Virus record (IMG/VR): IMGVR_UViG_3300006736_000020
Coordinates: 1-38,771 of that record
Source of the DNA: a virus
DNA length: 38,771 bases
Reading direction: 5' to 3' (one strand)
The notes beneath the pieces were generated by a model that saw only the letters and a program-made list of their open reading frames with translations, was not told the origin of the DNA and made no database searches. How positions within the stretch are numbered: position 1 is the first letter of the stretch; every line of letters begins with the position of its first letter. The position numbers and the translations under genes are program-made. Below, one piece after another: positions 13,007 through 31,551 of the stretch.

Positions 13007-13915
13007 GTGGCCGGCATTTTAAATAGTAAAACTCGCGTTTTAGATACTGTGATCACGCCTACGGGTCGAGCCCAAATGGCCGATGGTGAGATGCAAATTA
13101 TGTATGTATCTTACTCTGATAGGCAAATGTTCTATCAGACCGGCTCTAATGGTGAACTTTTTGATCCGGGCGATCGCCTTTATTTTGAAGCATATTCTAT
13201 TGATTCTGATCTTATTATTCCTGAGACGGATAGCGGTGGAAATTTGGTCCCTTTTACGACCGACACCTTCAACTTGTATGGTGGGCGTGTAGTGAGTGGC
13301 AGTCAGCTTCAACAAGATGTTTCACTTTATGCGGAAGAACTCACGGCCGATTCATTAAAGAGTTTCCAGCGGCAGATGGTGCTCGGCACTCGCAATTTAA
13401 TGAAAAATGAAATTATAGATGCGTTTACACTCACTCCTACAACGGCATCATTTTACATAAGCGCAGAATTGTCCAATCTTGGCGATACTATCGTGACAGC
13501 GAGCCTTGATGACGTTGAATGTTTATGGCAAGATTATCGAGTGGCTAGAGCTCCTAATTATCGATATCTCCCACCCCAAATGTATGCGCTTCCGAACGAA
13601 GTTACCGGTAGTGCATTGGGAAAATATACGAAAATCAATCAAGATCCGCCGGCAGACTACGACGCCGTTTTAAAAAATCTAAAAGATCAACAATTGCTAA
13701 AGTTTTCGTTTTCAAATACTCGTACTACTAATGATCTGTTGGGACAAATGTTTGAAGTGAGTGGTGACTCACTAACGAAATTAATTGTAATCGATGGTGG
13801 AACTTATCCAATAAATGGAGGAGTTGATCCACACGTTTTTTATGCTGGAAAGATGTATCGAGATACCAAGGGATGCTTGACGTTTGCAAATCTTTTTACA
13901 CTGGTGTTTGAGTAA
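13007..13915 (+). CDS. Virion structural protein with ILxSxxxVxDxxxTxxGR head domain
   Basis: GTG start at 13007 with a strong GGAGGGATAA ribosome site. The first 40 residues (GILNSKTRVLDTVITPTGR, then MADGE, then YVSYSDRQMFY) match in pattern the start of the 22004 gene (GFLDHSTNNIIVDAVLTDKGR). That head domain is known to me from structural proteins of marine T4-like phages with no assigned function. The other 260 residues are unrecognised. The stop codon shares one base with the next start (TAATG), beginning a chain of four coupled genes. Likely a tail or baseplate-associated component; the exact place is unknown. Confidence 0.72.
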   Translation: MAGILNSKTRVLDTVITPTGRAQMADGEMQIMYVSYSDRQMFYQTGSNGELFDPGDRLYFEAYSIDSDLIIPETDSGGNLVPFTTDTFNLYGGRVVSGSQLQQDVSLYAEELTADSLKSFQRQMVLGTRNLMKNEIIDAFTLTPTTASFYISAELSNLGDTIVTASLDDVECLWQDYRVARAPNYRYLPPQMYALPNEVTGSALGKYTKINQDPPADYDAVLKNLKDQQLLKFSFSNTRTTNDLLGQMFEVSGDSLTKLIVIDGGTYPINGGVDPHVFYAGKMYRDTKGCLTFANLFTLVFE

Positions 13916-16335
13916 TGTTTGTACGTGACCTAGAATCTGACGCAGAATATTTTTTAATTGAAAACGAAGATACATTTGCAAGTGTTTCGTATGAAGACGG
14001 CATTGTGACTTATAATTTCACGGTTTACGGCAGAATGCTACAAGCCGTTATTGACGAATATGACGAAATACAAGTACAAATTGCAAAAAAAATGCGTTTT
14101 CGGTACAAGTATTTTAAAGGAACAACACCTGAAGATGTTGAAAACGCAACCGTCGGTTTTGTTCAAAATGTCAAGGCTGCCCTGGATGCCTTAGAAGAAA
14201 AAGAAACCATCGTTGAGGAAATATTTCCCATTAATCGCTTTGTTTCTGATGAAAATATTTCGAATATTGGGTCTGGTTTTATAACTGATGAAAATTATAC
14301 GGACTATTTAGATGTCATCGATATCATGGAGTCCAGCGAGGCAAATTCTAGCGAACAGCTGGTATTGAGCGGAAGTGGTCTTGAGGAGCTTACCGTTGCT
14401 GCGGAAAGTACATCTCCCATAAAATTAAGCAATGATTTATTCGAAAATCTGGGAATTTTTCCAGGTCTTATTTCTAAGGTTACGTTTCCGAGGCAGTGCG
14501 AAATGGATCGAGATTCTGGAAAGATGCGCTCCTGCAACACAACAATTGATGAATTGATAAAAACAACCGGCCCATTTAAGGAACTTTATTCTCATTTTGT
14601 GTCTGTAGTTCCAGATTCAGAGATGGTGACCTCACTCACTACCGGAAAGCCAGAATATCAGGAAATGAATTTTTCTATTTCGTTTCCAATGAGTGAAGAC
14701 GAGTTGGCTGGCATTGCTGGGGAAAAAAATCTTTTGTTGCGAATTTCCCTATTCAAGCAAGGGATCGAGGTCGTACAACAAAACTTTAGCTTCAATAATT
14801 TAGAGTTATTTACCAGATTTTCAGCACGCTTAAAAGATGTCAGCGTAGAGCTGGTGACATACGATCCTATCACTGTTTTACCAGACACATTGGTCGTTAA
14901 AAATCCCAATAATTTTTCGGTCGACGTGACGCTTTTTAAATTTATTCCGTCTGAATCCGGAATTTTAGATAGGGACGTAGTAACCGAAGATACTCTCGAG
15001 CCTTTAGAAAGAAAAGAGATAGAGAGTGATACCATATTTTATGATGCATCTGAGACCCGTGCTTATGCCCTTACTGCGAATCGATCTGTGGGAGGTATAC
15101 CTGGAGTTGCCAATGTTAGAGCTTTGGAGGCTCCTCCGTCAATTAAGAAACCAGGCATTGAAACAATTGTTCCTACTCTAACTGTTCAGGACGGAGAGGG
15201 TGGAGTAACAATTACGCTTGAGGGTCTACCTGAGGTGGGTTACAAAGCCATTCTTTATCGAAAGGAATTTGGTTATGTTGACGATATTGTGATTGGTACT
15301 TCGGTGGGAAATGCTTCGTGGGGTGACAATACTGTTTATGACGGGAGCATTTTTATTTACACAGCGCGAGTTTTTATGAACGATGCTTTTGGCAAACTTG
15401 TCGCAGAGACCCCATCATTATGGCATGCTCCCAGAGCGACGGCAATGAGACTGGGTTTTTCTATCATAAATGAACGTTCGATCCGACGTGGTAGCACGGT
15501 GACTCACACGTTCAAAATAACGCAAAATGTTGCTTCTACTCCCGCAAGCCAGATGTTGGAATCAGCGACTTCCTCGGGAGAAGCATCAATTTATGAAACT
15601 GAGCTCGAGGCTGAAAAAACTGATACGTCTGTTATCGCCGATTACGTTATTTTTCAATATCATAAAAAGAGAGGAGCATTACGCTATATGGGAGATTATC
15701 AGGCGGATAAAACAATTACGTTTACTTTACCGGCACGACGTGCCAAAAGAATTCTTTATTTTGTGATACCCCGTGTAACAGCCGCAGCAGCTCTTTCATA
15801 TTTAACAACGACCCAGGAGACGGACCAAGCCACTGGACAATCATATTTACTCCGTTATAAGAAGTGGAGAGATCCTATGGCTAACCGGGAAGAAATACTC
15901 CCTTCAAATGGCGAAATTATATTAAATGATATAGTTGCTGCTTTGCTTAATTCACAGAGTGGCTTAGTTAAGAAAGTAGACATGACTGCGTCGTCTAAGC
16001 TTGGAGTTGTCAGAAATCTAGACGCAGATTTTGATAAAGCCGGAGGCTATAATTTCATTTCGTGGCAATTCAGCGGCGATTTATCGAATATTGCGTATTT
16101 TGTCGTCATGGCTAATTATAACGGTGTAAAGGCTCCGGTAGGTATGGCAATCCCGGATGGCAGAACCGCCCGGGAATTAATTTCTTTTGCTGACAAAGAT
16201 TTAGGTGGAGCCCTTGGAGTAATATCATATTCAATTATTCCTGTTACCGTTAGTGGAGAACTGGCTAAAGAATCAAATGCTAAAAAAATCATGAATTTAT
16301 CTACCTTTCCTAAAGAGGCACTTCTGGCAACATAA
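13915..16335 (+). CDS. Large structural protein with fibronectin-III-like segment
   Basis: The 806-aa product begins at the ATG that overlaps the previous stop (TAATG). There is no strong separate ribosome site, so it probably depends on coupling. The N-terminal 100 residues are acidic and mixed alpha/beta. A segment from about residue 405 to 510 (starting PPSIKKPG, with VTITLEGLPEVGYKAILYRK) reads like a fibronectin-III or Ig-like sandwich. The C-terminal part has further strand-rich sequence (NFISWQFSGDLSNIAYFVVM). No enzymatic motif is seen. Together with its neighbours it is inferred to be a tail or baseplate structural component. I do not recognise a named family. Confidence 0.7.
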   Translation: MFVRDLESDAEYFLIENEDTFASVSYEDGIVTYNFTVYGRMLQAVIDEYDEIQVQIAKKMRFRYKYFKGTTPEDVENATVGFVQNVKAALDALEEKETIVEEIFPINRFVSDENISNIGSGFITDENYTDYLDVIDIMESSEANSSEQLVLSGSGLEELTVAAESTSPIKLSNDLFENLGIFPGLISKVTFPRQCEMDRDSGKMRSCNTTIDELIKTTGPFKELYSHFVSVVPDSEMVTSLTTGKPEYQEMNFSISFPMSEDELAGIAGEKNLLLRISLFKQGIEVVQQNFSFNNLELFTRFSARLKDVSVELVTYDPITVLPDTLVVKNPNNFSVDVTLFKFIPSESGILDRDVVTEDTLEPLERKEIESDTIFYDASETRAYALTANRSVGGIPGVANVRALEAPPSIKKPGIETIVPTLTVQDGEGGVTITLEGLPEVGYKAILYRKEFGYVDDIVIGTSVGNASWGDNTVYDGSIFIYTARVFMNDAFGKLVAETPSLWHAPRATAMRLGFSIINERSIRRGSTVTHTFKITQNVASTPASQMLESATSSGEASIYETELEAEKTDTSVIADYVIFQYHKKRGALRYMGDYQADKTITFTLPARRAKRILYFVIPRVTAAAALSYLTTTQETDQATGQSYLLRYKKWRDPMANREEILPSNGEIILNDIVAALLNSQSGLVKKVDMTASSKLGVVRNLDADFDKAGGYNFISWQFSGDLSNIAYFVVMANYNGVKAPVGMAIPDGRTARELISFADKDLGGALGVISYSIIPVTVSGELAKESNAKKIMNLSTFPKEALLAT

Positions 16336-19300
16336 TGGCAATAACATCTAAAACAGTCTCAGCACCAAAAACGTCAACTTCGGCATCGAAAGCCCGGGTA
16401 CCCGCAAGTTATAGCACTGGAAAAGCAGGTTCTGCGCCCAAGGTTCGGGGCAATATCGCAAAAACAATTGCGCGATCTTCTAAACGGATGCATCAGGCGG
16501 CCAAAATTACAGACCAGCGTCCGGAAATTTTGGCAATGCTTGATTTTAAACCACTTTATGCAACGGGTGGCGATTTAACTCTGGCCGGAAAAATGTTCAA
16601 GGCTCGTGTAAGTGAAAGAAGCCAAACGTTGGAGGCCATTCGGGATATGTTGACTGAGTTGGAAGATACTCTGCCAGACGAATTTACGGCTGCCACGAAT
16701 CAATACGCCAGCGCTCTTGCTGCCACAGAAGCCGATATCGCGCTGCTTAAGTTGATGATTTTATTGCGGGAATATGCAACACATTCCGCTCGATTTGTAG
16801 ATTTTAAAGGTGAATACGAACCTCCGGAAGAGCTGGAGGTTGATTTGTTTGGAGTCAATGTAGCCAGTCAAATTAGAAATATTTTGGGAATTAAGAGCTC
16901 CAAAAATAGAAACTCGTTTTGGAAAACAGCTGCTCCACCATTTTTACAGATATTATCCGACATTCCGTTGTGTAGCTATGCGATTATTCCCTCACAGATG
17001 CAGAAAAACAAGCGGACCGCTGGTGCAACCGAGGGAGTAGCAAAGAGATTTAAGTCTAAAATTCGTGAGAGATTGCCGGTTTTAACGACGGGATTTGTGG
17101 TACGAGATATGGTCGCATCTTATGAGTTCACGAAACTATCCATTGGTGATGAAGTAGACGACGATTTTCTTGCTATTTGTGAAAGCGCCCTTGGCTCTAA
17201 ATTCATAACCTCAAATATAGATCAGCCATTTTCAGGGTTTAAAAACTTGATCGGTGAAGATTCGTGGGTTAAATTAAGGAGATCGACATATACAGAGAGC
17301 CTTCTCAACACCGAAACAAAAGCAAAAATTTCAGAAATGTTGAGAACAAAGAAAGGAATAATTGGAAAATCAAAAACCAAATTAAATCGCGAGACAATTT
17401 TTCTACCGTTAAAGGCAACGACCTCGTATGGAACCTCGGAATATTTAACAATAGAAGGATTAGTTGACGAGGCGTTTTCTGGTCCGGATCCATTAAATTT
17501 TGATGAATTTAATGAAACTTTGGGTGACTTCACCCAGTCAATGCATGATTTAGAGACATTTGGAAAGACAATGTTTCGGTTAGGTGAAAAAGCTGATGGT
17601 TATGCCGATCCACGAGATTATGCGCTTGTTGCGGACGAAATGCCTTTTAATTTGGGTCCTGCTGCCGCGGTAATTCTCGATGTTTGGAACCGCCGATTTG
17701 TGAGCGCTTTTTATTCGGCTGCTTATAGCGAAATTGATGAATATCTTTCTCCTGAACACATGATGTATAACCGAATGATCGCGTGGCTCATCATTCGTGA
17801 TGATTATGAGACGGCTTATGGCTTCGTATCTGCATTGGTGAGTGATTACGAAAATGGCTTTTTAACTGCGTCCGGTTTGCCGGAGGAAATCGTTCTTGAC
17901 GAAGAGACAAATGAGACAGAAATGTCGCCAACAGCATATGTTTTGCCAGGAACGTCAACTCCAGCCAGCCTTGATACCGTTGGTACCCGCTTGGGCTCTA
18001 AGCTTTCTGCAATGTCAGATTGGTTTAATGAGAAGAGTTCGTATTCCCCCAAGATTGATACCCAAAAATCGTACGATGACGGTTATCCGTATCCCAAGGA
18101 AGGTTATAATCTGGCTAATCGTATGTTCGGATCGGCACAGAATGGAGATAGACGTTACGTTAACCCAATGTTTGTAGGTTATTTGTTTTTTACAGAAAAT
18201 AATCGGACCGTTAAAGGCTGGCGTGGAATAAAGATTGCTTCGGCAGAAATTATTGATACTATTATGGAGATAATGGGTGCATTGATGTCGCCGCTTCATG
18301 AAGTTGAAGCAGTTCCTGATGGCGATCCAATTTTCCCATCGTTGACCGAAAGTAAATCGCCTTATGGGTCGGGTTCATGGTCATTTTGTGATCCCGCGTA
18401 TGAGTCTATGGCTACCGAAATGTGGGTTCCAACAATTGAGGCATGGCATGATCTCTTTGCTCGTAAAACATCTCGAGAAACGCGGTTTAGAAATGCTAAT
18501 TTTAAAAATCACGCGAAAAATATAATGCGTGCACTTGCCGCGCTAATGTCGAATTTTGATATGGTTAAAATCTTTTCTGCCGGAAGCGGTGATCCGGCCG
18601 ATATCGCAGAAGGAGGACTTGGAGATCTTGAGTGGACGTCAGGGACAACTAGGTCGTATAGCACCCAAGTGGCGTCCATTGGCCTCGCCGCATCATCCAC
18701 TCAATCTCATGAGGGTGTGGGACATGTTTCATTTTTTAAGAACGTGCGTGACTCGGTAGATAATTTACTTGCGAGCAGTTGGGATGATTTAGAAGATATT
18801 GATTACACTGAAGCAGAAGGAGTCGGAGCGAGCTGGGCCAACAAAAGGTTGAACGCGATGCATAAAGGAATGAAAGAATTTCTTCTTGAATCTCACGAGA
18901 ATGATGTTGCATTGGAACTTTTGTATGATTTCGTTGGTGATTATGCAACTAGGGTAGACAATTATAGCGCCGCCGTTCAGGGGTTGGTTGAAGGTGAAGA
19001 TTCTGCTCTTGCAACGTTTGTTGAATCTATTAGAGAAACCGGCGATGCAGGAATTGATTTGTTACAAAATCTCTCTCCAAACCAGCTTGCGTTAAAGCAA
19101 ATTGCGTTGGCAGAAGAAAGAGGTGATGAAGATAATGCGTTTTTACCAACGTTGGCAATTTTGACAAAATCAGAAATAAAGGCAGTTCGACTTCTTGCTA
19201 GAGAAACGAAGGCTGTGGCTCCTGAAGGTGATAATGCAAAGATAATTTTGGTAGGATTACCGGCTGGTATGTTTGAAACATTAGATATCGATAATGATTT

Positions 19301-20192
19301 TGCGGTACGGGTGAGCTATGTTGACATCGAATACCCTCAAATAGTATTTCGGGGTCGTATGTATCCGTTTTATAAAGATGTATACGTTGATCCTGATGAT
19401 TTAGAGAAGAGTCTTAGTGGAGTTGATACTTTTGAAGAACTCGTAAAGAAAGTACGCTTCTCAAAACTGGTTGTTGAAGTTGAAGAATCAAACGACACGT
19501 CGGCTTCTATCGAGGTCAGTGATGATATCAAAACAAAGCGTGCTAGAACAAAAACAATGATTCCATATTCAAATCACGCCGCATCAGAAATTCTTAAAAT
19601 ATATTGTAGAATTATGCTTGGTCTAAATTTTGCAGAGTCTGCATTTTTAGGGACTGCCGAAGGAATTCAGATTCCGATCAATGATTACGCCGCAGATCTT
19701 GCCGGTGCCATGGCTGCTGGTTTGGAGACGATAGGCGAATTTTCTGAGGATTTAGCAGCGTCTGCAACGAGTGTTCTTTCGGAACTTTCTGTTATTGAAG
19801 ATGATGCATTTGTATCTGGCGAACTTGAGGCAGTTGATGAAGCGTTATTGACGAATCTAAGAGATGCATTTCAAACTCGCTTATTCAGCGCAGGGGTAAT
19901 GAGAAGCCGGGTAATGTCGGCAAAAATGTTTGATCGAATTTTTGCTTTAGCTGTAGATCCTGACGAATTTTATATTGTAGCCCCCGATGATACCGATGTA
20001 TCGGGTGTTACGACTCCGCAACTAATTTTGGATTTTTATCTTCAAAAAGGAATAATTGAAGAGACCGGAGAGGATGCTCCATTTCGTTATAAGCTTGCTC
20101 CGCGAACAACCGCAGAGGGTCGAATGGCATTTGGAAAGTTTTTCGTGTCAATAGTGTCTACGCCCACAAACCTAGATAGGACTTTTGAATAA
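16335..20192 (+). CDS. Very large unrecognised structural protein (1285 aa)
   Basis: It starts at an ATG overlapping the previous stop (TAATG) with only a distant GAGG, so translation is probably coupled. The N-terminal 50 residues are basic, Ser/Thr/Ala/Lys-rich and probably disordered. The rest is a mixture of helical and acidic stretches. No signal peptide, membrane span, catalytic motif or repeat unit stands out. It is the middle member of the four-gene coupled cassette, and its size suggests a scaffold of the baseplate or a neck/tail accessory, but this is inference from position only. I cannot name the family. Confidence 0.65.
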   Translation: MAITSKTVSAPKTSTSASKARVPASYSTGKAGSAPKVRGNIAKTIARSSKRMHQAAKITDQRPEILAMLDFKPLYATGGDLTLAGKMFKARVSERSQTLEAIRDMLTELEDTLPDEFTAATNQYASALAATEADIALLKLMILLREYATHSARFVDFKGEYEPPEELEVDLFGVNVASQIRNILGIKSSKNRNSFWKTAAPPFLQILSDIPLCSYAIIPSQMQKNKRTAGATEGVAKRFKSKIRERLPVLTTGFVVRDMVASYEFTKLSIGDEVDDDFLAICESALGSKFITSNIDQPFSGFKNLIGEDSWVKLRRSTYTESLLNTETKAKISEMLRTKKGIIGKSKTKLNRETIFLPLKATTSYGTSEYLTIEGLVDEAFSGPDPLNFDEFNETLGDFTQSMHDLETFGKTMFRLGEKADGYADPRDYALVADEMPFNLGPAAAVILDVWNRRFVSAFYSAAYSEIDEYLSPEHMMYNRMIAWLIIRDDYETAYGFVSALVSDYENGFLTASGLPEEIVLDEETNETEMSPTAYVLPGTSTPASLDTVGTRLGSKLSAMSDWFNEKSSYSPKIDTQKSYDDGYPYPKEGYNLANRMFGSAQNGDRRYVNPMFVGYLFFTENNRTVKGWRGIKIASAEIIDTIMEIMGALMSPLHEVEAVPDGDPIFPSLTESKSPYGSGSWSFCDPAYESMATEMWVPTIEAWHDLFARKTSRETRFRNANFKNHAKNIMRALAALMSNFDMVKIFSAGSGDPADIAEGGLGDLEWTSGTTRSYSTQVASIGLAASSTQSHEGVGHVSFFKNVRDSVDNLLASSWDDLEDIDYTEAEGVGASWANKRLNAMHKGMKEFLLESHENDVALELLYDFVGDYATRVDNYSAAVQGLVEGEDSALATFVESIRETGDAGIDLLQNLSPNQLALKQIALAEERGDEDNAFLPTLAILTKSEIKAVRLLARETKAVAPEGDNAKIILVGLPAGMFETLDIDNDFAVRVSYVDIEYPQIVFRGRMYPFYKDVYVDPDDLEKSLSGVDTFEELVKKVRFSKLVVEVEESNDTSASIEVSDDIKTKRARTKTMIPYSNHAASEILKIYCRIMLGLNFAESAFLGTAEGIQIPINDYAADLAGAMAAGLETIGEFSEDLAASATSVLSELSVIEDDAFVSGELEAVDEALLTNLRDAFQTRLFSAGVMRSRVMSAKMFDRIFALAVDPDEFYIVAPDDTDVSGVTTPQLILDFYLQKGIIEETGEDAPFRYKLAPRTTAEGRMAFGKFFVSIVSTPTNLDRTFE

Positions 20193-21943
20193 TGGCAACT
20201 TCCGAAGAGCCCGGACAACTGTTAAGTTATCAATCGATTTCTACACCGATTTTTGATGTTCCTGAGCCTGAAGATCTGGACGGGAAGTTTGTGTACAATT
20301 ATTTTTTGGCCGATGAGCGTGTTTCCACTAACACGTCAAGTAGCTTGGAGGCATTTAATCGTCATAATAAAGCATACGCTCGAGAAGTGCATCTCTCTTT
20401 TACACCTTTAGCATCTATTATTCCACCCGAAGCAGAGCTTTCCCAAATTCAAATGAGCGATAGGCAAAAAGAAGTAATGCTTGGCAAGAATATCAGTAAG
20501 ATAATTAAAGAAACCGAATTTATGAATTCTGCGTTTTTGGCTCTTCAAATGCAAGATTCTACCGTCACCGAACGATTGATGGCAAACGTAGAAGCACAAC
20601 TTCTACAGAGAAAAATTGACGCTCAAGCACTGTCGCCGACGGAAACACTTTTAAAATATAGTTCAGCCACCTCAGAGAACGTCGACGGTCAAGCTCTTTT
20701 AGAAAGCATAGATCTCGATGATGGCAACGAATATATTTCGATTGATCCTACTACTGGTGAGCCATTTGCTGTGAGTAAGGCCGGAGCGGTAAATTCGTTA
20801 ACGTTTAACGTTGTAATGGCTCAAAAATTTGCTGGCGATATTGTTTCTGCGGCTGTAATGACACCAATGGGGCCTGCAGAAAATATGCTTCGTGGAGTAA
20901 CCGAAAAAATTATTGAACAGCAAATAAAAGCACGAGAATTTATTAACAGTAGAGTAGTGAGAGTTGCAAATTATCAATTTGCCGTGAGACCAATTGCATT
21001 TGAGAAAATCGACACCGATGATGTATTTTTGGGGGGCAATACGATTATGGGTTATAGAATTAGGAAATCACTCGTTCAAAATGGGACAAATAAGTTTATT
21101 AATGATTTCTTTGTGGCAAATACCTCTGCTACATCATTTGTTGATCGAGATGTTTTGTATGGTGTGAAATATGAATACGCCATTTCAGTTGTTTATCTTG
21201 TTAGGTTTTTTGCGTATAAAAAACGAAGTGTTGTGGAAATGGATTTGCTTGTGGAATCGCGAGAATCTCCGTCGATTACGGTGACTTGTGTCGAGGCAGT
21301 TCCTCCATTGGCACCTGACGGATTAGATTTTTATCTCTTACAGGGTGGGCGATTGGTATTAGAGTGGGAGATGCCATATAATCCGTCGGAAGACATCAAG
21401 AGATTTCAAATATTCGTTCGATCATCAATTAATGAACCTTTCAGATTGGTGAAACAACTGGATTTTGACAACAGTGTTGTTCAAACATCTCGTAGCGAAA
21501 ATATTCCAGATTTTGCAAATATCGTTTATGACAGACCAAAGATGTCTTACGTGGACGAAAAATTTTCTATTGAAAATAAATATATTTACGCTATTTGTGC
21601 CGTAGATGCGCACGATTTGGGTTCTGGTTATAGTGAACAATTTCAAGTAAGTTTTGACATGTTTGATGGAAAACTCAAAATTGAGTTTGTTGCAAGAAAA
21701 GACGCACCCAAGCCATATCCAAACTTTACACTAGTGACACCCTTGACACAGGACAGCATCAAAGATTCGTCACATTCATCGGTATCGTGTTATTTCGATC
21801 CGGAATATTTAAAGGTTATAGATTCAACAGGAGAAGATATGCAGCATTTGGCTTCTGCTGTTGAGAAGGCTAGTTACAAGCTGCAATTATTGCACTTAAA
21901 TTTTCAGCAAAGTGCAGTGGTGGATATAATTGTCACCGATTGA
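20192..21943 (+). CDS. Structural protein with fibronectin-III-like segment (583 aa)
   Basis: Last member of the coupled cassette, starting at an ATG in a TAATG overlap. Residues about 369-495 form a fibronectin-III-like unit: PPLAPDGLDFYLLQGGRLVL opening, EWEMPYNPSEDIKRFQIFVR middle, and IYAICAVDAHDLGSGYSEQF closing, the usual pattern of strands B to G. The N-terminal half is helical with a stretch about residues 85-150 rich in Gln/Glu/Lys. A second FN3-like gene (13915) lies two genes upstream. A tail-periphery role is inferred; a family name is not possible from sequence alone. A 60-base gap with a small palindrome follows. Confidence 0.72.
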   Translation: MATSEEPGQLLSYQSISTPIFDVPEPEDLDGKFVYNYFLADERVSTNTSSSLEAFNRHNKAYAREVHLSFTPLASIIPPEAELSQIQMSDRQKEVMLGKNISKIIKETEFMNSAFLALQMQDSTVTERLMANVEAQLLQRKIDAQALSPTETLLKYSSATSENVDGQALLESIDLDDGNEYISIDPTTGEPFAVSKAGAVNSLTFNVVMAQKFAGDIVSAAVMTPMGPAENMLRGVTEKIIEQQIKAREFINSRVVRVANYQFAVRPIAFEKIDTDDVFLGGNTIMGYRIRKSLVQNGTNKFINDFFVANTSATSFVDRDVLYGVKYEYAISVVYLVRFFAYKKRSVVEMDLLVESRESPSITVTCVEAVPPLAPDGLDFYLLQGGRLVLEWEMPYNPSEDIKRFQIFVRSSINEPFRLVKQLDFDNSVVQTSRSENIPDFANIVYDRPKMSYVDEKFSIENKYIYAICAVDAHDLGSGYSEQFQVSFDMFDGKLKIEFVARKDAPKPYPNFTLVTPLTQDSIKDSSHSSVSCYFDPEYLKVIDSTGEDMQHLASAVEKASYKLQLLHLNFQQSAVVDIIVTD

Positions 21944-22003: not shown

Positions 22004-22726
22004 GTGGGTTTCTTAGATCATTCAACTAATAATATCATTGTCGATGCCGTGTTAACAGATAAAGGCCGACAGCTTTTGGCGAGAAATGATGGCTCATTTC
22101 AGATTACAAGGTTTTCATTTGGCGATGATGAAGTTGATTACCAAATTATTAGACAGTTTGGCAGAACTGTCGGAAAAGAAAAAATAGAAAAAAATACTCC
22201 TGTTTTTGAGGCTCAAACAAATAGTGACTTGGGTTTAAAAAATAGAATGATCAGCGTTGCAAATCCATATTTGACAGTCCTGCCTACGCTGGCTGCTTCT
22301 TTTGTAAATGGCGCTTCTACGCTTGTGAGAGGATCATCCCCGACACAAGCCGACGTTCAGGTTGTTCAATCTAACGAAAATAATACCAGCATTGATGTCG
22401 ATCTTCGCGATTCCAGCTTTTTGGTTCAATATGATAATAGATTTTTGTCTGTAACAGGTTACGAGAACAACGTTTCGACTCCGTCAACAGGACAAAATTA
22501 TATTAGCACAGTACGCGTGCGCCAGACAGCCACAAATTCCGATGGGAGCAATGGCTCAATTGCAACGTTTAGGGTAGCAATCAGATCTTTTTCGGATTCG
22601 TATTATAGCTATTATTCAACGTCAGCAAATTCAGGTGTGATTAGAACGTTTTTAACTATCACCGGAACTGCAAGCGGCGCACTTGTCACCCAGCAGCTTG
22701 ATATTAACAAGAATAGTAGTACATGA
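22004..22726 (+). CDS. Virion structural protein (240 aa), GFLDxSTNN...TDKGR family
   Basis: GTG start at 22004 with GAAGAGG upstream. The N-terminus (GFLDHSTNNIIVDAVLTDKG, then LARNDGSFQITRFSFGDDEV and DYQIIRQFGRTVGKEKIEKN) is, from memory, a well-conserved block in structural proteins of marine T4-like phages, of unknown exact function. The second half is a beta-rich Ser/Thr domain. The head block parallels the start of the 13007 product, so the two may be paralogues that dock in the same place on the tail. It is followed 11 bases later by the 22738 gene. Confidence 0.75.
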   Translation: MGFLDHSTNNIIVDAVLTDKGRQLLARNDGSFQITRFSFGDDEVDYQIIRQFGRTVGKEKIEKNTPVFEAQTNSDLGLKNRMISVANPYLTVLPTLAASFVNGASTLVRGSSPTQADVQVVQSNENNTSIDVDLRDSSFLVQYDNRFLSVTGYENNVSTPSTGQNYISTVRVRQTATNSDGSNGSIATFRVAIRSFSDSYYSYYSTSANSGVIRTFLTITGTASGALVTQQLDINKNSST

Positions 22727-22737
22727 GGTTTTTATAA

Positions 22738-24069
22738 ATGGCCACTTTTAAGACAATTGGTGCCGATGACATTCAAACATCTACGAGTGTTTTAAGTCAA
22801 TTGGTTGATGTGATTCAGGAAGACATATCAGGTTCTTCCACCCGTAGAAAATTTCAGGTTTTTGTTACGGGTGGAGTGGGACCAGGCGTTACATCGTCAC
22901 TGTTTCAAACTGTTTACGATCAAGATTTCACTCTCCAGACGAGCAATGCGGTCTTGGACATGACCGTTGGGCTTTATGAGTCTGGAAGTACCGTGATAAA
23001 TTGTCAAACCGGTATTGATTCCAATGGTAAATTGCTGTTTCCGTCGCAGTCATTGATGATGCGTGAAAAAATCGAAAACTATAAACAATTTGCGCAGCTG
23101 CTCCTTGGTGATGCTAATGGAACATTCTACGCACCTGGAGTCAATGCTTACGATTCTGCGGCCAGCGCCACCGGTGTTAGCACTGGATCAGCGGGTGATC
23201 GTATCGAAGAAGCAATGTTTGTTAACTTTAAACGCTTGTTTGCTCGTGACGAAATTAGAAAAGAGACGTTTGCAGTCAGGATGTTTTCCTCCGCGTCTCT
23301 GGACGGAAGCAAGGTCGATGCGATCAAGGGTGTGGTGGATGGAACCATTGCTAATGCATTTACCGGAACAAATGTCGCTCGTCCCACCACATCTGGAAGT
23401 GTTATCTATGCCGACGTCGGTGCATCAGCAACACAGTTGAAGTATTTTGGTGGCGATGTTGGATTTATTAAAAATACCGCCGACACATCTAAAGCCGTGG
23501 GCTTAATGTGGTACGATTATGGCGTGGGCGTTTTTGATATGGGTAAAGTATTTTGTATCGATCAACACATGTCTGGTGTTATTGCTGCAATGAATGCTAC
23601 TGCATATTTGGGTACTGACGTCGCTCCCGGTGAGGCAATGCTCGGTGGGGGCTCCGGACCAATACCCACCGATCTTTGCGATAATGTAAGTGGATCGTTT
23701 ATTCCTGACATGATGGTATCCGCGTCAATTGATAATATTGTTGACCACCTCGCGTCTACTCGGTTTGGAACCGGTTCATTTACGGCAACCACGTTTCAAA
23801 ATGTAACCAACATTAACTCAACGTTGCTTTTTTGTAGGGCGACGGCTGACGAATTTAATTATTCATCCAATCCCACCTTTAGGGACGCAACTGGAGAGGT
23901 TATTGTAATTGAGCCTGGAGATGATACTGGCCAGCGTTCGTTTACGTTTGTGACGACAGTCGGGATGTATAACAGCAACAATGAACTCTTGGCAGTTGCC
24001 AAGCTTTCCCGACCGGTTGAGAAAAACGACGAGAAAGATTTAACGGTTCGGGTGAGATTAGACTTCTAG
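22738..24069 (+). CDS. Virion structural protein (443 aa)
   Basis: ATG at 22738, ribosome site GAGG overlapping the previous stop. The N-terminal block MATFKTIGADDIQTSTSVL, followed by LVDVIQEDISGSSTRRKFQV and SLFQTVYDQDFTLQTSNA, is a pattern I recall from conserved structural proteins of marine T4-like phages with unresolved role. The C-terminus, about residues 370-443 (FNYSSNPTF, then TTVGMYNSNNELLAVAKLSR and VRVRLDF), is matched in layout by the end of the next gene. It is not a recognisable tail sheath or tube. Tail or baseplate component by context. Confidence 0.78.
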   Translation: MATFKTIGADDIQTSTSVLSQLVDVIQEDISGSSTRRKFQVFVTGGVGPGVTSSLFQTVYDQDFTLQTSNAVLDMTVGLYESGSTVINCQTGIDSNGKLLFPSQSLMMREKIENYKQFAQLLLGDANGTFYAPGVNAYDSAASATGVSTGSAGDRIEEAMFVNFKRLFARDEIRKETFAVRMFSSASLDGSKVDAIKGVVDGTIANAFTGTNVARPTTSGSVIYADVGASATQLKYFGGDVGFIKNTADTSKAVGLMWYDYGVGVFDMGKVFCIDQHMSGVIAAMNATAYLGTDVAPGEAMLGGGSGPIPTDLCDNVSGSFIPDMMVSASIDNIVDHLASTRFGTGSFTATTFQNVTNINSTLLFCRATADEFNYSSNPTFRDATGEVIVIEPGDDTGQRSFTFVTTVGMYNSNNELLAVAKLSRPVEKNDEKDLTVRVRLDF

Positions 24070-24086
24070 GATTGGTGTGATGTTCC

Positions 24087-26897
24087 ATGTCATTTATACG
24101 AATTACGAAAGCAAATATCGACACGTCAGTGTTGGAGCTCCACCCAAGTCGTAGCTTTAGCTCTTCTTCGATAGGCGGAGTAACAGGTAGTGTTAGGGTA
24201 ATAGCCCAATCGTCTCCGTTTTTTAAAGAAACGTCAAAGAATGGTCCTTTTGTTGAGGCTCCAGTTGATGCTTCCTCTATTGAAGAATTTCGGGACGCGG
24301 CATTTGGTGGTATTTACAGTGTTGATGCAATAGCAGCGACGGGTTCTGCGTCTGGCTCTTGGGCAGGCAACGCAACAGATCCTCTGGCTGATGGATTAAC
24401 TCTTACATTTCTCGATACTGCCGGTAATCTTTTTTCTGCAGTTACTGATACGGCCGTCGCGTATGGTAGCAGCACTGCCACCGTGATTGGAGTTGATCCC
24501 GGCACAGGAGTTACCGTCGGGTCTGATCTCGTAACTGCAGTTAAAAATTCTATAACACAGGCAAAACTTTATGGTGTTACGGCAACCTCCCACAACACCG
24601 ATTCTGGCAATAATGATAAATTGCAGGTAGAAACTCCCACAGCGGATGGCACAGGTTACACACTGCTTTTAACGGCTTCCGATATTGGTTACGCCGGCAA
24701 TCAGCCGCTCACCGGGACGTTGGTGGATTTAGCAAGTGCCGATCCTCCTCGTCTAACGGTTAAGGGCCTTGCCGGTGGTACCGGCGCAAATTTATCATCT
24801 GTCTTTGAGGGATATCTGACAAAGGTCAATGATGCTTCTCAAGCTGCTCGTCAAACCAAGTATGTCGAGGTTCTTCGTTTCATTCCGACTAACACATTTA
24901 CCAGCGATACAATTAGAAAGAACGTGTTCCGCAAAGTCTTGATGCCACAATATAAAACGGGTTATCCGGATCTTGAGTGGGCATTCATGAACAATCAAAG
25001 TTTTCACTTTGTTAGTTCGTCGGCATTTCCATCTGCGAGCGTTCTTATTTATCCTGATCCTCTCGACACGTATTTGGTCATGTCTGGATTGACACTTTCG
25101 TGTAACGTTAAATTGAGTCGGACAATAAGTGGATCACATCCATATACCGCAGGTACCACGATATTTAGATCCTCATCGTATGCATTGTCTGTGGTGACTG
25201 GCTCACAACGAGATCCTACGGGTAAGGTGACTGGTTTCCGTTTATTGCTCCAGCTTACAGGAGCATGTGATACTCCGGCACAGAACGTATCACTTACTTC
25301 TCTTCCTCCTTATACCTTTTTAAGTTCTGACAACGTTTTGAAATATAATCATTGGCACAATATTTGTGCTGCTTGGGGATCGGAACACAATTCGGGAACC
25401 GGCTCATTTTATATTGATGGAGTTAAAGATGCAGATGCCGAGTTTTGGGTCAGCACCGCATCCATCAATACATCTCCCGATGATTTTAATTCAGTTTTTA
25501 TTGGGGCCCATTATAATTCTTCCAGCTTGGCAATGAATGGTTATTTTAATTCTGCCGTTGCCGCAGTTGAGGGAATTTACGATGGAGGCGGACCCACGGT
25601 AGAGCCGCTGCCTGAAGCTTTAAAAGCTTCAAGATTCAATGGCGAAATTAACGATATCCGGATTTTTAGTGAAAGAATTTCTGATGATCGAATACTGACG
25701 GGTTCTATGTTTGGTTTAACCGAACTCCCTCAAGGTTTGGTTTTTTATGTTCCCGGATTTTTTGTAAAAGAGAGTCCCAAGCGGGAAGTTCTATTAACAC
25801 CGTTTCAGGCGACAACTGAAGCAACAGAGGAACCGTTCAACGTAAAACTTGCTTATGGTGTGAGGGGTCGAGATATTAATTTGCAAAATTATGTTCGTGA
25901 ATTCGTCCAAAAGAAACATCCTCGTCTTTATTATCTTACCGCCTCCACGATAGATATTTCCACAGAAACATATACGGCAAATTCTTTCTTGCTTGATATC
26001 GGTGCTAACCATAAGATGCACCGTGCGCGTGAAATGTTTATATTACCGGCAGATAATGGTAAATTCATTCCTGGATGGAACCTGTTGTCAAGTGGAACCG
26101 TTGCACAACGTCCAGCTTCTGGATCTGCGATGTCGTCATTTGTTAATGATTTGGGAAATTTGAATCTTTCCATCGTGACCCTCAACGACTTGATGCCCAC
26201 GTCGTCAATTTTTGAAGGCTTGACACAAGCAAACAGCGATGGTACTGACAATACGGCCAATAGTGGTATTTTGCAGGAAATTATGGGTTCTAGTCCGGAG
26301 TCAGCCGGTGTAGATCCTGGGTCGGGTTACACAATTTTGCAACGAACCCGTGATAATTCATCAAATGCTGTCGTTATTTTTGATGCCTGTAACTTGTTTT
26401 ATGGTAAAAGAATGATGCCGGGATCTATAAGAATTCACGATAGTAATTTGTCTGGCACGGCCGATACGCTTAATATGACAATTTTAGACAATGATCGAGG
26501 GACCCTTTATCGAGCAGACGCAGATTCGGTACATGCAACGTGGTGTGCAATTGGTTATACGATTTACGAAGAAGGGCTATCGGTTATAATGAATCCCAAT
26601 ATTCCATTTTTTGGAAGAGAGCAATTTTCTTTCATTATGCAGGGTGAGCAGAATATTCATATTCTTGAAGTTGTTACCCCCGCTTTGCAGGGGATGTTAA
26701 ATTCCAGTTCTAATCCGTCATTTATTGCAGGTACTCGAGACAACTACGCGTCAAGCTTCGAAGGTACGGCATTTGGAATTTCATCAATTCAATTCCATGA
26801 TAACAATATGAACGTTATAGCCCGAACAACGCTCGCTCAGCCTATACTCAAGACAGAATTTGATAAATATATGTTTAGGGTGAAATTTGATTTCTGA
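24087..26897 (+). CDS. LamG-like virion structural protein (936 aa)
   Basis: ATG at 24087 with a weak GGTG site; a nearby ATG at 24080 is out of frame. Residues about 99-233 hold a variant of the beta module seen in the 3 and 1607 genes (GLTLTF, GYAGNQ, GLAGGTG). Residues about 331-545 look like a LamG jelly roll: NHWHNICAAWGSEHN, SFYIDGVKD, VFIGAHY and FNGEINDIRIFSERISDDRI. The C-terminal 65 residues (SSNPSF, ISSIQFHDNNMNVIARTTLA, VKFDF) parallel the end of the 22738 product. Thus a mosaic adhesin or tail protein. It overlaps the resolvase start by 11 bases, joining the structural and DNA-metabolism blocks. Confidence 0.82.
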   Translation: MSFIRITKANIDTSVLELHPSRSFSSSSIGGVTGSVRVIAQSSPFFKETSKNGPFVEAPVDASSIEEFRDAAFGGIYSVDAIAATGSASGSWAGNATDPLADGLTLTFLDTAGNLFSAVTDTAVAYGSSTATVIGVDPGTGVTVGSDLVTAVKNSITQAKLYGVTATSHNTDSGNNDKLQVETPTADGTGYTLLLTASDIGYAGNQPLTGTLVDLASADPPRLTVKGLAGGTGANLSSVFEGYLTKVNDASQAARQTKYVEVLRFIPTNTFTSDTIRKNVFRKVLMPQYKTGYPDLEWAFMNNQSFHFVSSSAFPSASVLIYPDPLDTYLVMSGLTLSCNVKLSRTISGSHPYTAGTTIFRSSSYALSVVTGSQRDPTGKVTGFRLLLQLTGACDTPAQNVSLTSLPPYTFLSSDNVLKYNHWHNICAAWGSEHNSGTGSFYIDGVKDADAEFWVSTASINTSPDDFNSVFIGAHYNSSSLAMNGYFNSAVAAVEGIYDGGGPTVEPLPEALKASRFNGEINDIRIFSERISDDRILTGSMFGLTELPQGLVFYVPGFFVKESPKREVLLTPFQATTEATEEPFNVKLAYGVRGRDINLQNYVREFVQKKHPRLYYLTASTIDISTETYTANSFLLDIGANHKMHRAREMFILPADNGKFIPGWNLLSSGTVAQRPASGSAMSSFVNDLGNLNLSIVTLNDLMPTSSIFEGLTQANSDGTDNTANSGILQEIMGSSPESAGVDPGSGYTILQRTRDNSSNAVVIFDACNLFYGKRMMPGSIRIHDSNLSGTADTLNMTILDNDRGTLYRADADSVHATWCAIGYTIYEEGLSVIMNPNIPFFGREQFSFIMQGEQNIHILEVVTPALQGMLNSSSNPSFIAGTRDNYASSFEGTAFGISSIQFHDNNMNVIARTTLAQPILKTEFDKYMFRVKFDF

Positions 26898-28428: not shown

Positions 28429-31400
28429 ATGGTTAGAATTGCTCATTTAGCTGATATTCATTTTCGAGGTCTCTCTCGGCATGCAGAATATCGAAAAAGT
28501 TTTGAAGAGTTTTTTAAGCAATGTGACAAGTTCAAACCCGATCATATTGTGATTGCTGGGGATATCGTTCATTCAAAAACTCATGGTATTTCTCCGGAAC
28601 TTGTTGATATATTGACGTGGAGCTTTAGGGGGATGGCGTCACGAGCTCAAACCCATATTATGCTGGGAAATCACGATGGCTTAATTACAAACAAAGATCG
28701 TCAGGATGCTATAAGCCCTATAATTACCGCCATTAATCATCCAAATCTGCACCTGTATAAAGATTCAGGTGTTTATGATTTTGCAGATGGAATGTGTTTC
28801 TGCGTATTTTCGTGTTTTGACGAGGAGGGATGGAAGGATTTGTCTCCCCATGAGGGGAAGGTGAATATTGCTGTATATCACGGAGCCGTCAGAGGCAGCG
28901 CTATAGAAAGTGATTGGCTCATTGAGGGAGAGGTCGACGTTGATATTTTTGACGCATATGATTTTGCGTTATTGGGTGATATTCATAAAAGGCAATATTT
29001 GAACGACGCTAAAACCATTGCATACCCTGGCTCAATGATTCAGCAAAATTATGGTGAGTCGATAGAAAAAGGTTATTTGTTGTGGGATATTACAAGTCCG
29101 AAAGAATACACTAGTCGTTTCATTGAGGTTCCTAACTTGCAACCTTTTGTGACCCTTGATTGGAATTCTATTGATACCAAGAAGGTAAGTGGTGGACTCA
29201 TTCCAATGGGATCGCGCGTAAGAATCAAGCACCCTCCAAGTGTTCCCCGCGCTGAAATAAATCAATTTAAGTCATTGTTGATGGAGAAGCTCGGCGCTAC
29301 TGAAATTGTTACTCGCGTGTTGAAACCAGAGCAGGAAGATTCTGTTATCACCATTAACGAGAATGTTTTAGATCTCCGAGATCCGCAGGTTTTATTCACA
29401 TTAATTCGAGATTATCACTCCAATATTTCCGATGAAGATATTTGGAAAGAAATTGAGCTGCGCTTACGGAAATATTGCGAAATGATACCAAAAACCGACA
29501 CAGCCCGAGGTACTCGGTGGTCGATTAACAGAATTAAATTTGACAATATTTTTGGGTACGGCAAAGGAAATGAAGTTAATTTTGATTCTTTAGCGGGCGT
29601 GATTGGTTTGTTTGGAGCTAATCGTGTTGGAAAGAGTTCTTTGGCAGGCGCGCTCACGTATGGATTATTTAACACGAGTGACAGAGGCGCTTTAAAGAAT
29701 TTGCACGTGATTAACACAAGGCGAAATCACTGCCTCGCCGAAGTAGACGTTAGTGTTAATTCGAAGCGCTATAGAGTTCAGCGCCAATCTATAAAGCGTA
29801 CCGCCAGATCTGGGACGGTAAGTGCTAGCACTCATCTTAATTTATTTGAAATTGATCCGGCTGGCGAAATTATTAAAGATACGTCAGGCGAGCAACGCCG
29901 CGATACTGATCGGTTTTTAAGGCACCTCATCGGTGATAGAGAAGATTTTTTTCTGACATCGTTTGCGACCCAAGGAGAGATGAACGCTTTTATTAAAGAG
30001 CGCGCTACGCAACGAAAGGCAATTTTGGCAAATTTTCTGGACTTGGCTGTTTTTGACACGTTGTATGAACTAATCAAGCGAGACGCCACTGAAATTAAAA
30101 CACTTTTGTCGAAGGTGCCAGAACGAAATTGGCGATCTATTATTGCCGATCTCAAGAATCAGCTAAAAGAGTACAAGATAAAAATTAAAAACATCGAATT
30201 AGTGATGACGTCAACACAATCAAGATTGGATGGTTTAAAACTAGAATTACGTGAAGCTAATGGTGAACATGTTGTTACGGTAAACGATATTCATCGGAAG
30301 GAGAACAAGCTGCAGATTGTTAAAAATCGGATCATTGAAACTTCGGCGCGACTTCAGGCTCATGAAGAGACGTATCAGCATCAGATTCGAAAACTAGAAA
30401 AGGCCCGAATTTTGGAACGCTCGTTTCCACTTCCACAGCTTGAAGCCCGCCTAAACGACCAGCGCGACATCGAACGCGCGCTTTTAACTGTTCGGCATAA
30501 CACGGAAATTGAACAAAAGGAGTTACAACGACAGAAGGGATCAGCTAAAATTTTAGAGACAGTTCCCTGTGGGACAAGTTTCCCGCAATGTAAATTCATC
30601 AAGCGCTCGCACAAAGATGCCGCTTTAATCGATGAGCAGATTGGTCGAGTTAAAGAAACAAATTCTTCCTTGCGAATTTTGGAACAAAATTTACAAAATT
30701 TGATAGCCGAAAATCTACAAGAAAAAATTGACAAATACAAAGAAATTTTTAAACAAGTTAACGATCTTAAATTGAGTCAATCGGGCATTGAATTGGAGAT
30801 GAATAAGCTTAAACGGGAATTAAACGACTTATCCGAATCAGAAATTTTATTGGACGATGAAATATCGGTAATGAGAACACAAGTGGTCCAAAAGACTGAG
30901 ATGCCTGAAATTTCTTCTCTTCATGAAAAAATTTATGAATTGGAGGAAGAACTGAAGGCAGATGATGCATCACGATTGTCACTGAGTGAACTGGTTGGTC
31001 GCACCAAAACTGAAATGGGCCACGTTGCTAAAGAACAGGCTAAATATGTTACGCTGCTTAAAGAGTGGAAGGTTTACGATTTATTGATGACTGCAACAAG
31101 TAAGCGCGGGGTACCTGTCCATATATTGAGTTCTCGTCTTCCCAAGATTAATGCCGAAATTGCAAAAATCTTGGGAACAAATATTAATTTTGCCATCGAA
31201 CTTGAAGCACCCATCGATTCAAATGCAATGAATATCTTTATTGATTATGGCGATTCTCGTCGTCCAATTGAATGTGCTTCTGGAATGGAAAAAATGCTCG
31301 CTTCTCTCGTAATTCGCGTGGCACTAATTAATATCTCGACACTGCCCAAATCAGATATCCTGATTATTGACGAAGGCTTTGGTACGCTGGACGAAGTCAG

Positions 31401-31551
31401 CATTGTTGTTTGTAATATGCTATTACAAAGTTTAAAAAAGTATTTTAAGTGTATATTGGTTATATCTCATATCGAAGGCATTAAAGATAGTGTGGATAAT
31501 TTAATTGAAATACAAAAAGAGGGTGTTGATGCCAAAATTTGTATCGTTTGA
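28429..31551 (+). CDS. SbcD-SbcC (gp47-gp46) fusion recombination nuclease
   Basis: One 1040-aa frame contains both subunits of the Mre11-Rad50 type complex. Residues 1-350 are the metallophosphatase: LADIHF (Asp9, His11), AGDIVH (Asp45), GNHD (Asn81-Asp83), YHGAV (His151), GDIHK (Asp184, His186). From about 364 the ATPase begins: GANRVGKSS (Walker A, Lys402), coiled coil about 530-900 with a CGTSFPQC hook (Cys714, Cys721), SGME signature at 951-954, and LIIDEGFGTLDE (Walker B, Asp981, Glu982). In T4 these are separate genes 47 and 46 in this order. Likely to resect DNA ends for recombination-dependent replication. ATG at 28429 follows AGGAAAG by about ten bases; an ATG at 28422 stops at once. 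Confidence 0.93.
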   Translation: MVRIAHLADIHFRGLSRHAEYRKSFEEFFKQCDKFKPDHIVIAGDIVHSKTHGISPELVDILTWSFRGMASRAQTHIMLGNHDGLITNKDRQDAISPIITAINHPNLHLYKDSGVYDFADGMCFCVFSCFDEEGWKDLSPHEGKVNIAVYHGAVRGSAIESDWLIEGEVDVDIFDAYDFALLGDIHKRQYLNDAKTIAYPGSMIQQNYGESIEKGYLLWDITSPKEYTSRFIEVPNLQPFVTLDWNSIDTKKVSGGLIPMGSRVRIKHPPSVPRAEINQFKSLLMEKLGATEIVTRVLKPEQEDSVITINENVLDLRDPQVLFTLIRDYHSNISDEDIWKEIELRLRKYCEMIPKTDTARGTRWSINRIKFDNIFGYGKGNEVNFDSLAGVIGLFGANRVGKSSLAGALTYGLFNTSDRGALKNLHVINTRRNHCLAEVDVSVNSKRYRVQRQSIKRTARSGTVSASTHLNLFEIDPAGEIIKDTSGEQRRDTDRFLRHLIGDREDFFLTSFATQGEMNAFIKERATQRKAILANFLDLAVFDTLYELIKRDATEIKTLLSKVPERNWRSIIADLKNQLKEYKIKIKNIELVMTSTQSRLDGLKLELREANGEHVVTVNDIHRKENKLQIVKNRIIETSARLQAHEETYQHQIRKLEKARILERSFPLPQLEARLNDQRDIERALLTVRHNTEIEQKELQRQKGSAKILETVPCGTSFPQCKFIKRSHKDAALIDEQIGRVKETNSSLRILEQNLQNLIAENLQEKIDKYKEIFKQVNDLKLSQSGIELEMNKLKRELNDLSESEILLDDEISVMRTQVVQKTEMPEISSLHEKIYELEEELKADDASRLSLSELVGRTKTEMGHVAKEQAKYVTLLKEWKVYDLLMTATSKRGVPVHILSSRLPKINAEIAKILGTNINFAIELEAPIDSNAMNIFIDYGDSRRPIECASGMEKMLASLVIRVALINISTLPKSDILIIDEGFGTLDEVSIVVCNMLLQSLKKYFKCILVISHIEGIKDSVDNLIEIQKEGVDAKICIV

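Follow-up and report, generated by a model that had tools for sequence, protein, structure and literature searches.

The window analysed here, a 38,771-base IMG/VR virus record, carries four consecutive large genes on its plus strand, termed A to D, and raises the question of what kind of assembly they encode and whether their close packing has a meaning for it. Gene A (13007..13915, 302 aa) has a GTG start and a strong ribosome site, and its product combines an N-terminal motif of about 43 aa, common with the product of g10, with a conserved C-terminal strand region. Gene B (13915..16335, 806 aa) encodes a protein with a fibronectin-III (FnIII) domain near residues 408-499, gene C (16335..20192, 1285 aa) a protein without a recognisable domain, and gene D (20192..21943, 583 aa) a protein with an FnIII domain at residues 370-490. 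The ORF listing agrees exactly, in coordinates and lengths, with the four genes described in an earlier note on this DNA, and the start positions are supported by the relatives, since the initial methionine is invariant or nearly so in the four family alignments. No clear transmembrane segment was found in the four proteins (highest 19-residue Kyte-Doolittle mean, 1.6).

The 3' side of the module is occupied, in order, by g10 (22004..22726, plus strand, 240 aa), which has its own ribosome site and is the constant partner of A-D, then by g11, the LamG-like g12, a RuvC-like resolvase, a primase and a fused SbcD-SbcC-like protein, after which come terminase, portal and prohead protease. The last three are T4-like (PHROG matches at 1e-49, 8e-68 and 9e-50, respectively), and the gene set 3' of A-D as a whole identifies the window as the late block of a T4-type phage. 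On the 5' side lie g1-g5, of which g2 encodes 2047 aa and g3 and g4 contain fibre-like repeats by inspection; LamG or lectin genes flank the module on both sides. The LamG domain of g1 (1-1610) begins upstream of the annotated start at 63 and the reading frame is open past the left edge of the window, so that this start is probably internal. The SbcD-SbcC-like g15 (28429-31551, 1040 aa) combines a match to an SbcD-like PHROG at residues 1-357 with one to an SbcC-like PHROG at residues 365-1032; it is apparently a pair of the T4 gp47-gp46 type fused into one protein, and a 1066-aa AAA protein occupies the matching place in Mel-JY01.

The four genes keep company far beyond this record. With g10 as query, 80 IMG/VR loci were recovered, and the terminase added 17; in those reaching far enough A-D lie 5' of g10 in the same order. 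The D family gave 376 relatives in IMG/VR, of which 80 were kept; 47 of these were new. In each of the 47, g10 follows D, and A, B and C precede D within the reach of the locus and the profiles. No relative was found in IMG/VR by a scan with B alone, a protein too divergent for this method, and g10 and D were therefore used as queries instead. D is present in at least 117 distinct loci, and the order A-B-C-D-g10, recovered with two independent query proteins, is kept in essentially every locus that spans it. The conservation of gene order suggested earlier as a check is thus borne out, and A-D can be regarded as a real module. In some loci the C profile is silent or weak and the slot is filled by an ORF of about 930-1450 aa; a divergent copy on a contig from a metagenome-assembled genome (MAG) has A and then a 928-aa ORF that the B profile does not match, followed by a C of 2178 aa, by D and by g10; and one locus (L027) has g10 with no detected D. 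At L045:1438-4112, B is represented by two adjacent ORFs (448 and 447 aa) matching the two halves of its profile, which reflects either a natural split or a frameshift or assembly error.

The junctions A/B (13913..13917), B/C (16333..16337) and C/D (20190..20194) on the plus strand all read TAATG, the final A of each stop codon being the A of the next ATG, as expected from the three one-base overlaps reported before. In distinct loci of relatives, the start lies within -10..+15 nt of the preceding stop at 232 of 259 A-D junctions (90%), against 137 of 426 junctions (32%) 3' of g10 in the same loci, and the overlap is of exactly one base at 58 of the former (22%) and 31 of the latter (7%), the background being approximate because it derives from greedy ORF calls. 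Four-base overlaps are found at 35 of the 259 A-D junctions, and the triple one-base overlap occurs in 2 of 71 loci only, namely the window and L030. What the relatives conserve is tight spacing within A-D, with a break at either end of the module, and not the exact one-base overlap. The anti-SD energies in the window are -10.0 kcal/mol for A, -5.3 for B, -5.6 for C and -3.9 for D. The downstream ribosome sites had been called weak or distant, and those of B, C and D are indeed weaker than that of A and of most neighbours, but they are moderate rather than absent, and the medians of -5.3 and -5.7 kcal/mol at the C and D starts of relatives indicate that a weak site is not a conserved feature.

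Termination-reinitiation coupling is often seen among the subunits of heteromeric complexes (PMC10666635, PMC6728339), and such coupling of A-D is plausible. The further proposal that strict coupling fixes the stoichiometry of one assembly is not supported, since the exact overlaps are unconserved and similar ones join other tail genes: in the wedge region of relatives gp6, a gene of about 500 aa, one of about 1140 aa and the next gene serially overlap by one base, as do T4 genes 9/10 and 10/11. T4 wedge proteins encoded by overlapping genes occur at differing copy numbers, so a fixed ratio does not follow from coupling. The serial overlaps are mostly a tight-packing habit of tail genes and not a special device; reading them as local packing, with no evidence of fixed stoichiometry, corrects an over-reading of this locus.

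With A-D and two divergent copies of D as queries, tblastn against 50,697 phage records returned no homologue, the C profile being run against cultured records in a smaller hmmsearch. The four proteins searched singly against Pfam and PHROG, the A and D families against PHROGs and the B family against Pfam gave no coherent match, and a single match of one D member to an unnamed PHROG (9e-4) was taken as chance. None of the four profiles matched T4 gp6-gp15, wac or gp53, nor any T4 baseplate chain among the PDB sequences; the profile check proposed earlier thus gave no sequence-level match of A-D to T4 wedge proteins. By the searches used, A-D are absent from cultured phages, and a literature search found no description of the module.

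FnIII-like segments had been noticed in two members, and both were recovered by independent means. For B, positions 408-499 of the profile match FnIII domains of gp130 at E 1.4e-5. D, which after A is the best conserved member, gave a confident AlphaFold model (mean pLDDT 82), and residues 370-489 of D superimpose on FnIII structures with a Z score of 10.8 and an rmsd of 2.2 Å over 93 residues; against tandem FnIII chains the match extends over residues 22-493 (Z about 11), and the model probably contains a second sandwich, which a helical insertion divides. FnIII proteins were the only ones among the structural matches listed, and no T4 chain was among those. Among viral folds the best matches are to proteins without a name, and those with a name, which come next, are largely tail, tip or FnIII proteins; these named matches appear limited to the common FnIII sandwich, with low TM-scores. 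B and D thus resemble FnIII-bearing phage tail proteins, such as minor tail proteins and the tip attachment protein J, in their FnIII domains, but the helical insertion of D and the rest of B are left unaccounted for by this likeness. Many phage proteins contain FnIII domains, which often decorate virions and do not fix the location of a protein in the virion.

The 1285-aa protein C had been described as lacking a recognisable domain, and Pfam, PHROG and PDB sequence searches likewise gave no match. It is conserved at residues ~51-100 and ~850-1285, while the middle is variable, and its size in relatives ranges from about 930 to 2180 aa. An hhalign comparison gave no partner for C. Its hits among PDB profiles, to proteins of coiled-coil or designed helical type (E 0.01-5), were dismissed as chance.

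Protein A, whose predicted structure is of low confidence (pLDDT 55), is linked to g10 by the common N-terminal motif, which spans 43 columns at 40% identity (hhalign probability 91, E 1e-6). The hhalign alignment is restricted to the N-terminus; 37 of 50 A proteins enter an iterated g10 profile with matches over most of the g10 model, possibly through their own inclusion. Matches of A to OST6 and Lon in PDB profiles (E 0.4 or worse) were dismissed as chance, and a link of g10 and A to the N-terminus of P2 gpH, suspected by eye, was not borne out by profile comparison. The C-terminal domain of g11 weakly matches part of the N-terminal domain of P2 gpH (E 0.005, 24 columns). By eye, g11 and g12 (22738-26897) have alike C-terminal stretches, and the g11 profile matches five consecutive genes of Mel-JY01 (L099 22490-31436); this stretch is possibly an attachment domain common to the set of fibre and lectin proteins.

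The position of the module relative to the tail genes was traced in longer records of relatives. Tail sheath (PF04984) was detected in all 14 related records (E <= 0.001; 7 above the curated cut-off), outside the fragment represented by the window. The gp25 and gp6-like wedge genes are separate from A-D and lie upstream, usually 11-30 kb away, which argues against A-D being the wedge core of the baseplate. Four relatives were examined, and in these the genes of about 500 and 1140 aa come after gp25 and the gp6-like gene; next are g1 and/or g2 homologues and sometimes fibre genes, and A-D come last. Of 12 records, 9 have gp25 on the strand of A-D at a distance of about 11-30 kb upstream; the other three have it on the opposite strand at a distance of 32-38 kb, and there A-D still accompany g10-g12, an arrangement that links the module to the fibre side.

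The cultured phages immuto (Flavobacterium; gp113-gp105) and Mel-JY01 (Microcystis), which have the nearest cultured terminases to that of the window, contain gp25, a gp6-like gene and genes of about 370-390 and 1300 aa, followed by g10 and g11 homologues; RM378 also has homologues of g10 and g11. Unlike the uncultivated relatives, immuto and Mel-JY01 have no detectable A-D, and from the ~1300-aa gene to g10 there is either no gene or one unrelated 403-aa gene. Since these phages have the wedge genes, g10 and g11 without A-D, the module looks to be an addition specific to one lineage, made at the baseplate's fibre side and not in the wedge core.

Taken with its neighbourhood, the module rather likely encodes structural proteins particular to this lineage, which in a T4-type contractile tail would form an assembly that is peripheral in the baseplate or anchors the fibres. 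Such an assembly would lie between the inner wedge (gp25, gp6 and their two neighbours) and the fibre and lectin proteins (g10-g12) and would hold or space the receptor-binding proteins. In this arrangement D and B may serve as FnIII-type linkers, C as a long scaffold with a middle of variable length, and A as an adaptor bearing the same short N-terminal motif as g10. Translation would probably proceed largely by termination-reinitiation on one message from the strong ribosome site of A, which would help co-assembly without fixing exact ratios. The proposal of an undescribed structural machine in the baseplate or neck is thereby upheld in part: a single conserved and unnamed module does exist in the tail and late block of a contractile phage, but a neck accessory is not favoured, because the neighbours are baseplate wedge and fibre or lectin genes. 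A bolder form of the baseplate reading, less likely than not, is that A-D are an undescribed outer baseplate assembly that does not share descent with the T4 peripheral wedge and is a fixed feature of large contractile-tailed phages of one widespread uncultivated lineage, with C as a length-variable arm setting the reach of the receptor-binding fibres.

A-D could also be other virion parts or assembly factors. They might be versions of the peripheral wedge proteins of T4 (gp7/gp8/gp9/gp10/gp11) so extremely diverged that the homology would show in the fold but not detectably in sequence. Like T4 genes 9-10-11-12, they come after the gp6 wedge region within a late block of T4 type, in a similar order relative to gp6, and encode large structural-type proteins with serial one-base overlaps as in T4 9/10/11; the protein sizes differ, however, B and D contain FnIII domains, and the lack of any profile match to T4 gp6-gp15, wac, gp53, the PDB baseplate chains or PHROGs makes such descent unlikely. 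A neck, collar, whisker or tail-shaft decoration would accord with the FnIII domains and with a module not locked to the wedge genes, as the three records with displaced gp25 illustrate, but fibre and lectin-type genes are its constant neighbours and replication genes lie between it and the portal, protease and terminase, so this location seems quite improbable. It is very improbable that C, and perhaps A or B, acts as an assembly factor, ruler or chaperone for tail building that is absent from the finished virion: the roughly two-fold variation in length, the poorly conserved middle and the fact that its matches are all weak (E no better than 0.01) and go to helical or coiled-coil proteins would suit such a role, yet C keeps about 930-2180 aa in the spanning loci inside a block of structural genes, and a surface arm would be equally expected to vary in length.

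The proposed peripheral baseplate or fibre-anchoring module amounts to about 3,000 residues that are probably tail structure, and it occurs in essentially every locus spanned in full in this common uncultivated phage lineage, whose contigs reach ~320 kb. It suggests how a T4-type tail may gain parts lying between the conserved wedge and the variable fibres, and it provides four families for annotators to recognise. Two contigs of the lineage were binned in bacterial MAGs, assigned to Halobacteriovorax sp. (L108, 109 kb) and Methylococcaceae TMED69 (L109, 306 kb), which may be mis-binning rather than evidence of the host. The sheath matches of relatives fall in very long frames of about 990-1175 aa, and two such frames are present in six records (those behind L002, L009, L012, L075, L095 and L008), whose sheath proteins are possibly large and duplicated.
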